Assembly (NCBI GenBank): GCA_002163245.1 | Contig: MAAL01000026.1 | Location: 1 to 37,351, forward strand | Length of the DNA: 37,351 bases | Direction: 5' to 3' | Source: Gammaproteobacteria bacterium 42_54_T18 | GTDB lineage: Bacteria; Pseudomonadota; Gammaproteobacteria; Pseudomonadales; Ketobacteraceae | Shown here: piece after piece, positions 34,688 to 37,351 of the stretch | Layout of the letters: each line of letters begins with the position of its first letter | Numbering within the stretch: the stretch's first letter is position 1 | The notes under the pieces: generated by a model | What the model was told of the DNA's origin: nothing | Databases searched by the model: none | The model's input: only the letters and a program-made list of their open reading frames with translations | Made by a program: the position numbers and the translations under genes

Positions 34688-34729
34688 AGAGTGCTTACTC
34701 CTCAGTACCCCATCTTCCGGAGAACAATT

Positions 34730-37162
34730 GTGGCAGGTAACACATCGTATTCCTTACCACCGTGGCTTTTGCTACTCACACTAACCATTGGCCTATTAAT
34801 AAGCCATCTCTTACTGGTGCCTTTTAATAGCCAGTCATTGATACCTGAGAATATTACTCAAGTAGCGCTCAACATGACCTTTGAGCCAGAAGATACCGAT
34901 GTCCGTTTAAATACCTTTTTACCAAAATCCAATCATCGACAAACGCTCATCAATGAAACCAATCTTGCGCCCAATATGGAGTTCCACGAACAAGATAATG
35001 CATTAGGACGTCTGGGGAACTGGGCAGGTACAGATCAAAGCCGTTCTGTTCACTATCAAGCGCATCTCACGACAACAGCCACTCGATACGAAATCCCCAG
35101 CGATCTGTTAATCCCTGAAGGTTATGATTCCAGCTTAGAGGCTTATTTATCGGCTACCGATGCTGTTCAAGTTAAACACCCAGAAATTGAACAGCTATGG
35201 AAAAACATTGCACCCAAAAGTGATAAACATGTATTGGATGTGTTAGGTGCCATTTACGATTACACCTATAACGACATTACGACTGTACCGTTTAAAGGGG
35301 TTACTGATTCTCTTACCGCATTGCGATTGGGAGAGGCCAGCTGTAACGGAAAAAGTCGTCTATTTATTTCCCTAGCACGTTTGAACAACCTTCCTTCGCG
35401 CTTAGTCGGAGGTCTCATTCTGAATACTGGCACTAAAAAAACCTCCCATCAGTGGGTGGAAGTTTTCATCAACAACTATTGGGTTCCTTTTGGACCAACC
35501 AATGGCTATTTCGCAGAGCTGCCTTCTCATTATCTAGAGCTCTATCGTGGAGATTTATCGCTTTTTAAACACAATCGCAACATCAATTTTGACTACGCTT
35601 TTACCATATCTCAAGACACCATCTCACCAGCCCTATACCAGCATCAGGAACCATCAGTTGCCAAAAATATTAATGCAGCGGTGTTATTGCAAAACTTGGG
35701 GCTTAACCCAAAAACTACCAGTATCTTTTTGTTGTTCCCTCTCTGTACATTATTGATTACTTTTTTACGCAACGTTGTAGGACTAAAAACCTTCGGTATA
35801 TTTATGCCGATGTTAGTTGCCGCAGCATGTTTCTCTATTGGCCTTACATTAGGGCTAATAAGTTTCTTATCGGTTTTATTATTGGCATTTATTTTCCATG
35901 CATTGCTGGATAAATTACATATTCTAAAAGTTGCAAGGCTAGCATCAATCATTACTATTATTACATTACTGTTTATCGTAACCCTGTATTTTATCGACAT
36001 AAAGCACCATGAACAGTTTGGTATGTTGACGTTATTTCCTGTTGTTATCATCAGTTTTGTTGCCGAACGTTTACATCAACTATCTGCAGAAAATAACTGG
36101 TCTGATATGGTAAGCATCAGCATCGGTACTGTGTTCACCATTGTTATGTGTTTTCTAATATTTAACTCCATTTTACTACAAGGGATATTTGCCTTGTATC
36201 CAGAGCTTCTACTACTTGTACTGTCCATCCAAATGTATATCGGAAGCTGGTCTGGAATACGTTTATCAGAAATCATTCGATTTAAAAATCTTCTTTTGTT
36301 AGATGCTAATGCTGTTGTTGGTATTAACAGTAGAAACAGAGATTTTGTGTATAAGCACAATAAAAAGTCATTACTTACTTTAGCAGCAGATAAATTAGCG
36401 GCAAAAGTGGCCTTACAAAAATTCAATATTCCTGTACCAGACACATTAGCATCTTGTTCTGAGCACAAAGAAATTGAGCAAATGATGCTAATGATACAAG
36501 ACTTATCACGCTTTGTTATCAAACCCAACAAAGGATCTCAAGGAAATGGCATTCTTGTCATCATTGACAAAGATGATGACCTTTATATCAGTGCATCAGG
36601 TAAAAAATGGAACAATACCGCCATCAGACAACATATCAATGAAATACTATCAGGTATCTATTCACAGGATGGTGACACTGACACTGCTTATATCGAACCC
36701 CTGATTCAACAACATACTTCACTTCAATGTTTAGCACCTTACGGACTAAGTGATATTCGAATTGTAGCCGGCAAAGGAAAACTCATCAGCGCCATGTTAC
36801 GTATGCCAACGAAACGTTCATCCGGCAAAGCCAACCTTCATCAAGGCGCAGTGGGTGTCGCAATTGATCTGGACACGGGTATCACGACACGATGTTCCAT
36901 CAAAGGTCAGAGCATTACCCACCATCCAGACAATGGGGAATGTCTCGTGGGGGTTAGCATTCCCTTTTGGAATGAAATAACCACAATGGCAGAAGACAGC
37001 TATCGTGCGATTCCATTGGGATATTTAGGCGTTGATGTTTGTTTAGATAAAGACAAAGGTCCGCTTATTTTAGAAGTAAATGGACGACCTGGATTGGAAA
37101 TTCAAAATGTACACAACAGAGGTTTTGGAAATGAATTATCTTCATCCATTAATGCGTCTTAG
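34730..37162 (+). CDS. inactive-transglutaminase/7TM protein fused to an alpha-L-glutamate-ligase-like ATP-grasp domain
   Basis: Single polypeptide of 810 residues. I chose GTG 34730 because GGAGA lies 7 bases upstream; GTG 34691 would add 13 residues. Order of parts: one membrane helix (about 12-30), a periplasmic region ending in a transglutaminase-like fold (about 165-280, with Cys205 in EASCNGKS and His240 in SHQWVE), seven more helices (about 330-505), and a cytoplasmic RimK-like ATP-grasp domain (about 520-800). The ligase shows FVIKPNKGSQGNG (ATP Lys and glycine loop), ADIRIVA-like SDIRIVAGKG, a cationic loop MPTKRSSGKANLHQGA, and LEVNGRPGLEI (Mg2+ ligands). In pseudomonads I know the 7TM protein and the ligase as separate neighbours, so this is a fusion or an unsplit ancestor. 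The ligation substrate is unknown. It follows trkAH but has its own promoter. Confidence 0.88.
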   Translation: MAGNTSYSLPPWLLLLTLTIGLLISHLLLVPFNSQSLIPENITQVALNMTFEPEDTDVRLNTFLPKSNHRQTLINETNLAPNMEFHEQDNALGRLGNWAGTDQSRSVHYQAHLTTTATRYEIPSDLLIPEGYDSSLEAYLSATDAVQVKHPEIEQLWKNIAPKSDKHVLDVLGAIYDYTYNDITTVPFKGVTDSLTALRLGEASCNGKSRLFISLARLNNLPSRLVGGLILNTGTKKTSHQWVEVFINNYWVPFGPTNGYFAELPSHYLELYRGDLSLFKHNRNINFDYAFTISQDTISPALYQHQEPSVAKNINAAVLLQNLGLNPKTTSIFLLFPLCTLLITFLRNVVGLKTFGIFMPMLVAAACFSIGLTLGLISFLSVLLLAFIFHALLDKLHILKVARLASIITIITLLFIVTLYFIDIKHHEQFGMLTLFPVVIISFVAERLHQLSAENNWSDMVSISIGTVFTIVMCFLIFNSILLQGIFALYPELLLLVLSIQMYIGSWSGIRLSEIIRFKNLLLLDANAVVGINSRNRDFVYKHNKKSLLTLAADKLAAKVALQKFNIPVPDTLASCSEHKEIEQMMLMIQDLSRFVIKPNKGSQGNGILVIIDKDDDLYISASGKKWNNTAIRQHINEILSGIYSQDGDTDTAYIEPLIQQHTSLQCLAPYGLSDIRIVAGKGKLISAMLRMPTKRSSGKANLHQGAVGVAIDLDTGITTRCSIKGQSITHHPDNGECLVGVSIPFWNEITTMAEDSYRAIPLGYLGVDVCLDKDKGPLILEVNGRPGLEIQNVHNRGFGNELSSSINAS

Positions 37163-37259
37163 CACCATATTTTCCAAAACAGGTGTTCCACTTGTGGTAA
37201 TTGCAAGTATTTTCACTCTTTGTATCACACTGGTAGAATATCATGGCGAACGCATCTAA
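37131..37259 (+). CDS. small single-pass membrane protein candidate (42 residues)
   Basis: Open frame overlapping the last 32 bases of the fusion gene. AGAGG lies 8 bases before the ATG at 37131. The product has a basic N-terminus (MNYLHPLMRLSTIFSKTG), a single hydrophobic helix (VPLVVIASIFTLCITLV) and a short tail EYHGERI. It fits a coupled small membrane protein of a ligase-associated system, but no homologue is recognised and such frames occur by chance. Confidence 0.4.
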   Translation: MNYLHPLMRLSTIFSKTGVPLVVIASIFTLCITLVEYHGERI

Positions 37260-37287
37260 ATCATTGATTCTGTAAGGTGTCTATCTG

Positions 37288-37351
37288 ATGTCAGAACCCT
37301 CCAGAGATAGTCCTTATCCCAGCCAGCTCTTTTTCGTTTACATTCAATCCC
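37288..37351 (+). CDS. start of a further gene, truncated by the window
   Basis: ATG at 37288 with AAGG 10 bases upstream opens a frame that runs off the right edge. The 21 visible residues are MSEPSRDSPYPSQLFFVYIQ and one more; too few to identify. It follows the fusion gene on the same strand and could belong to the same transcript. Confidence 0.45.
   Translation, partial: MSEPSRDSPYPSQLFFVYIQS

Follow-up and report, generated by a model that had tools for sequence, protein, structure and literature searches.

A transglutaminase-like membrane protein fused to a RimK-like ATP-grasp ligase, possibly the core of an unrecognised polymer machine

The window, by which we mean the whole 37,351-nucleotide contig analysed here (MAAL01000026.1, Gammaproteobacteria bacterium 42_54_T18), carries near its right end a single gene for a transglutaminase (TG)-like domain, a seven-helix membrane (7TM) domain and an ATP-grasp ligase. 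What could a ligase do when tied to a membrane protein with a domain on the opposite side? The original prediction placed the two halves in adjacent genes of pseudomonads, and these are indeed rloB and rloC of the RloABC system of Pseudomonas aeruginosa, in which RloB, a 7TM protein with a TG fold, is paired with RloC, a RimK-like ATP-grasp protein (PMC12239564, cited throughout from its accessible part). Pseudomonas lacking all three RloA proteases fails to grow at low osmolarity; the rloA1-3 mutant grows there again once rloB or rloC is lost as well. RloA itself cleaves stretches of 8 or 10 glutamates and leaves those of six or fewer uncut (PMC12239564). Based on this rescue and cleavage specificity, RloB and RloC probably make a glutamate-rich product that needs processing outside. 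No measured product of any RloC was found in the literature, the accessible part of PMC12239564 included. The present locus bears on that product. A match to an inactive transglutaminase also appears in a vesicle screen (PMC12096838, accessible part).

Domain organisation of the fused protein

The gene was predicted to hold a helix, a TG-like domain, seven helices and a complete ATP-grasp domain in one frame, and ORF analysis, Pfam and an AlphaFold2 model all agreed. It is a single open frame of 810 amino acids on the plus strand (34730-37162; TAG stop at 37160-37162), as are all the genes and codons located below. Its alternative GTG starts are at 34691 and 34730, and a GGAG motif resembling a ribosome binding site lies 7 bases 5' of the second (34719-34722, plus strand). 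Pfam matches follow in the order Transglut_core (residues 167-256, E 2.3e-13), 7TM_transglut (PF14402, residues 289-521, 35594-36292, E 2.7e-38) and ATPgrasp_ST (PF14397, residues 535-803, 36332-37138, E 2.5e-63). Two of the three families proposed as a check, 7TM_transglut and ATP-grasp, were thus found, and the third, Transglut_i_TM, matched weakly at E 0.24. The model, for which 41 fused sequences served as input, reached a mean pLDDT of 84.6 and a pTM of 0.71, and shows in order an N-terminal helix, an alpha/beta domain, a helix bundle and an ATP-grasp domain. The helix (residues 11-29, 34760-34816), delimited by DSSP on the model and by hydropathy, was taken to run from the cytoplasm to the periplasm, and the TG-like domain (residues 40-298, 34847-35623) would be periplasmic. 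Counting this helix and seven membrane stretches from a cytoplasmic N-terminus, the model and hydropathy support a cytoplasmic ligase domain; the predicted domain order and topology are supported.

The top-scoring NCBIfam family was TIGR02291 (RloC), at 282 bits below its curated cut-off of 314, and NF052267 (RloB) scored 100.9 bits, far below its cut-off of 900. The order of a TG-fold domain followed by a 7TM_transglut domain is that of RloB. A phmmer search of the fused protein against sequences of solved structures returned no match, but a profile did. For the ligase it matched RimK chains (5zct, E 5.8e-10), with the DIR, NLHxG, GVDI and EVN motifs aligned between the two, and Foldseek also gave RimK for this half; 5zct is titled a poly-alpha-L-glutamate peptides synthetase. 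Residues K559, K598, D675, R677, R691, D769, E782 and N784 are identical in 41/41 fused sequences, and we take these eight positions to be the ATP-grasp catalytic residues. From its sequence the ligase looks intact, and probably this cytoplasmic enzyme strings amino acids together. RimK, which is found with RimB and makes poly-alpha-glutamate, shares the fold and all four motifs, but it stands alone in the cytosol (PMC12239564), whereas the present ligase is part of a membrane protein.

The best solved fold for the periplasmic half, by Foldseek (E 4.7e-14) and by profile, was 3isr of Cytophaga hutchinsonii, titled a putative TG-like cysteine protease; the profile aligns the regions of the TG Cys, His and Asp with those of 3isr. 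The 3isr chain has fewer than 300 residues and lacks the 7TM and ligase parts of the fused protein.

Distribution and phylogeny of the fusion

A scan of genome contigs yielded 224 confirmed loci, and counts were made on the best 80 of these 224. The ligase and the membrane part share one frame in 47 of the best 80, 29 are split and four are cut by a contig end; 45 of the 47 fused loci are unbroken and two (L147, L151) are broken further upstream. A survey of fused and split forms, proposed with the prediction, thus found a fusion that recurs and is not universal. Its carriers include named strains of Kangiella, Aliikangiella and Pseudomaricurvus, and named strains of Marinifaba and Thalassomonas are also among the best 80. 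Two loci (L104, L105) belong to the genus of the source organism and were taken as records of genomes G001 and G003.

Closer to the window, 57 genomes were compared, its own (G000) included. The unbroken fusion is present in G000 and G003. In G001, of the same genus, the fused gene lies on two contigs whose pieces overlap at residues 544-568; G002, of the same genus, has the split canonical form, and G004 gave no match to the fused protein. A genome of the same order (G025) carries a piece of the TG-7TM part of the type found in the window (hereafter near type), truncated where its contig stops; a ligase frame stands apart, on a different contig. Among 369 genomes sampled from the class, with up to three candidates scored per genome, the near type was found in nine, the source included, at more than 480 bits as against at most 191 for the others. 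The source and G235 have it fused and the other seven split.

In an unrooted tree of the ligase region (102 sequences; the split L165 was too short and was left out), 48 fused sequences, that of the window included, form one side of a branch with support of 100/100. Another branch (100/99) sets apart 26 canonical sequences, and the 28 split catalytic-type sequences need two changes on the tree. The fused clade spans Gamma- and Alphaproteobacteria. Our literature search, which took in neither preprints nor most subscription papers, found no description of an RloB-RloC fusion, of a catalytic form or of the neighbouring genes described below; a 2009 ATP-grasp survey (Iyer) reportedly may describe the split pair, and with it part of the present findings. 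In the accessible part of PMC12239564, "fused" is used once, for the join of TG and 7TM domains, and "fusion" never.

The transglutaminase-like domain and RloA

The prediction called the transglutaminase inactive, and here the alignment contradicts it. We compared 81 lineage proteins (those of the best 80 of 224 loci and the window) with 47 canonical RloB proteins. Cys205 (codon 35342-35344) is Cys in 81/81 of the lineage and in 0/47 canonical RloB, where this column falls in a weakly conserved stretch and is a gap in 5/47; His240 (codon 35447-35449) is likewise His in 81/81 and 0/47. The loss of both TG residues that characterises RloB is therefore not seen in this lineage. The third position of the Cys-His-Asp triad, residue 255 (codon 35492-35494), is Gly in the window and Asp in most relatives (D in 61, G in 17 and C in 3 of 81, that is, Gly or Cys in 20/81). 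The count for Cys over the 80 loci is partly circular because Cys is in one of the two patterns used for the scan; His and the third residue are in neither. In a set of 11 sequences obtained by protein and profile searches before the scan, eight of them independent of the scan beyond its seed set, Cys and His are present in 11/11 and the third position is Asp in 8/11, the three Gly being those of the window's own genus. Judged by these residues, the TG domain does not belong to the inactive class.

Canonical RloB lacks Cys and His and has the secreted retropepsin RloA adjoining; in the present loci, some of them fused, both residues are kept and RloA is missing. An RloA profile, for which matches had to contain the D[TS]GA motif so as to leave out antisense frames, found RloA in 0/76 catalytic-type loci within the stretch examined per locus, 64 of which reach at least 1.5 kb upstream. 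RloA adjoins in 20/21 canonical loci; some of the RloA seeds come from the genomes of these 21 loci, where PF05618 also shows the neighbouring genes.

Searched over whole genomes, PF05618 was found in none of G000, G001, G003 and G004, the last of which also gave no match to the fused protein, and once in G002 with its canonical form (completeness of G000, G001, G003, G002 and G004, in that order: 96, 84, 96, 91 and 87%). Among nine further near-type genomes, G025, G251, G126 and G357 have no PF05618, G156, G235 and G371 have one such gene each, elsewhere in the genome, and G354 and G088 have two and also carry a canonical RloB. All 21 canonical-only genomes have at least one. We also searched for RloB and PF05618 in 48 genomes, of unstated completeness, from a list of 50 named loci. 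In four of the 48 a canonical-scoring RloB (238-361 bits) is present as well, always with PF05618 adjoining. PF05618 is absent from 20 of the other 44, and 17 have RimB-like or RimB-RimK forms that lack a hydrophobic N-terminus (for G447 this covers one of its two matches). The remaining seven are Hyphomonadaceae with additional weak, divergent retropepsin-like matches elsewhere, with a signal-peptide-like N-terminus in 3/3 genomes examined. Since the canonical and catalytic types are separate clades, the exchange of TG residues for RloA amounts to one or two events.

Two observations were made on these proteases. The divergent retropepsin-like proteins of the Hyphomonadaceae L209-L211 have signal-peptide-like N-termini, form a tandem pair in L210 and occur in genomes whose fused locus has no adjoining barrel match. 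A RimB-type retropepsin and a RimK-like ATP-grasp domain lie in one frame of 462-513 amino acids in the genomes of L185, L187, L188, L191, L194, L195, L197-L200, L202-L204, L207, L208 and L212.

Neighbouring genes and the proposed machine

A TPR gene is next downstream in 46/46 fused and 27/27 split loci with at least 400 bases left (73/73), and in 69/73 its product carries, close to the N-terminus, a hydrophobic stretch such as a membrane anchor would have. The TPR match was found in 0/25 canonical loci (25 of 26 with at least 1000 bases after the ligase gene). Where at least 3.6 kb are left, a gene matching a barrel profile lies downstream in 27/40 fused and 20/23 split loci (47/63). It is missing in 13 of these fused loci (eight Hyphomonadaceae, four Kangiella and Hydrogenovibrio UBA654) and in three of the split ones (L175, L179, L180), and the matches in L160, L161 and L178 are weak, at 45-55 bits. 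Some seed records of the barrel, TPR and catalytic-RloB profiles are themselves among the 80 loci (L105, L152, L157, L174 and L176), and these match by construction. The model of the L105 barrel (pLDDT 88.2) has an N-terminal helical stretch and 16 strands; its fold matches were porins in general, with AlgE and PgaA among the matches listed, and the barrel profile found no match among sequences of solved structures.

In the window the TPR gene is present as its first 37 codons (37131-37241), overlapping the end of the fused gene, with 84% identity over 38 residues to the TPR gene of G001; the DNA is 87.5% identical to L090 up to base 37237. There the gene is cut by a repeat of 110 bases (37242-37351), lying where the rest of it would be, and the contig stops at 37351. 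Copies 98-100% identical to this repeat end four other contigs of the genome, so an insertion, a deletion and an assembly gap look the same here. A query from a same-genus genome recovered neither the remainder of the TPR gene nor a barrel gene from the source assembly, and the operon may be interrupted in the source organism or just unassembled.

Upstream, trkA and trkH had been taken as a hint of osmotic adaptation. This did not hold: among the best 80 of 224 loci, 52 of which reach at least 4 kb upstream, only L104 and L105, both of the window's own genus, have these genes, and we rejected an osmotic role through trkAH on this ground. The canonical system does have an osmotic link, known from published experiments on rlo (PMC12239564). 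An anti-phage defence function was also rejected, PADLOC giving no match. Other upstream genes include a TPR lipoprotein-like gene in the split loci L152, L157, L162 and L167 and one similarity cluster in L119, L120, L125, L137, L139, L140, L148, L150, L165, L173 and L176. The longest member of the cluster, of 1416 amino acids in L148, appears by eye to be a large sensor whose binding domain is periplasmic, and may be a regulator.

The prediction left two functions open, sensing outside with ligation inside or the handing over of a chain through the membrane, and the TPR gene with its frequent barrel favours the second. With genes for a scaffold and, in many cases, an outer-membrane pore adjoining those of its relatives, the fused protein may form the centre of a polymer machine that has gone unrecognised. 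Our preferred reading, held tentatively and at a little below even chances, is that the protein unites a catalytic RloB-type protein with its RloC-type ligase and is the core of a machine spanning the envelope, which would make an amino-acid polymer, probably poly-glutamate, and export it. The cytoplasmic ATP-grasp domain would join amino acids, most likely L-glutamate, into a chain that could cross by way of the seven-helix domain or alongside it. In the periplasm the TG domain, with its Cys and His, might then cut the chain, or move it to an acceptor via a Cys acyl-enzyme, taking over the job of the secreted protease RloA of the canonical system. The product would be carried outward by the TPR protein, together with the outer-membrane barrel where there is one. 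What the analysis shows is the fusion in a single clade, the kept residues, the conserved neighbours, the lack of an adjoining RloA and the predicted folds; we infer the product, its transport through the helices, the TG chemistry and the export. The kept residues and the TPR/barrel neighbours suggest a concrete function that can be tested, in which an amino-acid polymer would be made, processed and exported. The fusion itself ties the ligase and the membrane protein into one path, and the predicted single device across the membrane is supported. Of the earlier interpretation, then, the domain order, topology, split pair and single device stand, and the inactive TG domain and the trkAH hint do not.

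The machine recalls synthase-dependent exopolysaccharide systems. Those of alginate (AlgK/AlgE), PNAG (PgaA) and cellulose (BcsC) combine an inner-membrane synthase, a periplasmic TPR scaffold and an outer-membrane barrel. The gene layout of the relatives' loci is similar, but exopolysaccharide synthases are glycosyltransferases and the putative synthase here has an amino-acid ligase fold. The RloABC system, for its part, has RloA beside RloB, and the present loci have TPR and often barrel genes downstream. It is conceivable, if rather doubtful, that these genes represent an unrecognised Gram-negative secretion class for a non-ribosomal polyamide such as poly-alpha-glutamate, consisting of ligase, channel and catalytic TG-like domain, joined in one chain in the window, with TPR scaffold and barrel, with rlo as a relative in which the TG domain is dead and a protease has taken over. 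The system was seen from Pseudomonadota to Bacteroidota, Spirochaetota, Myxococcota and Nitrospirota (partly in MAGs, with their binning taken as is). Counting against an export machine are the loci lacking a barrel in spite of room for it, the Gly at residue 255, the porin-general resemblance of the barrel, the cut TPR gene and missing barrel of the source assembly, a TG/RloA exchange of one or two events and the PF05618 or retropepsin-like genes elsewhere in the genomes.

The absence of a barrel match in 13/40 fused loci with room also fits an Rlo-like device for envelope stress without export, in which the ligase would glutamylate a membrane or periplasmic partner, the TG domain would trim it and the TPR protein and barrel would be the modified envelope parts. 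Canonical RloB and RloC do affect cell shape, osmotic growth and antibiotic sensitivity (PMC12239564), but a TPR gene next in 73/73 loci with room, with a barrel in most, resembles a polymer export layout, and we consider such a device unlikely, if worth serious attention. It is improbable that a surface polysaccharide is decorated or exported here, with the ATP-grasp domain attaching amino acids to a sugar polymer that the TPR/barrel pair would export. The Pfam name of the best ligase family, "Sugar-transfer associated ATP-grasp", and the presence of AlgE and PgaA among the barrel fold matches would agree with this; yet the ligase has the motifs of RimK, a glutamate ligase, and an unsystematic look at the conserved clusters recognised no glycosyltransferase, one glycosyltransferase-like frame lying downstream in L127. 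The title of 3isr, the nearest solved TG relative, as a putative cysteine protease could also mean that the TG domain acts as a protease that processes some exported protein, the ATP-grasp domain making something else. That the two act on different molecules is decidedly improbable, as one covalent fusion, whose carriers in Gamma- and Alphaproteobacteria form a single clade, speaks for a common path.

An assembly or sequencing artefact at the junction, for which no support was found beyond the same-frame canonical genes of eight relatives with a single stop between them, has a negligible probability and was rejected: the same join in 47 fetched loci, unbroken in 45 of the best 80 of 224 and in named strains, within a clade supported at 100/100, makes a missed stop or frameshift at 36290-36330 very unlikely. 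In those eight genomes (G002, G015, G017, G021, G034, G043, G044 and G055) canonical rloB and rloC are, in this state, one step from fusion.
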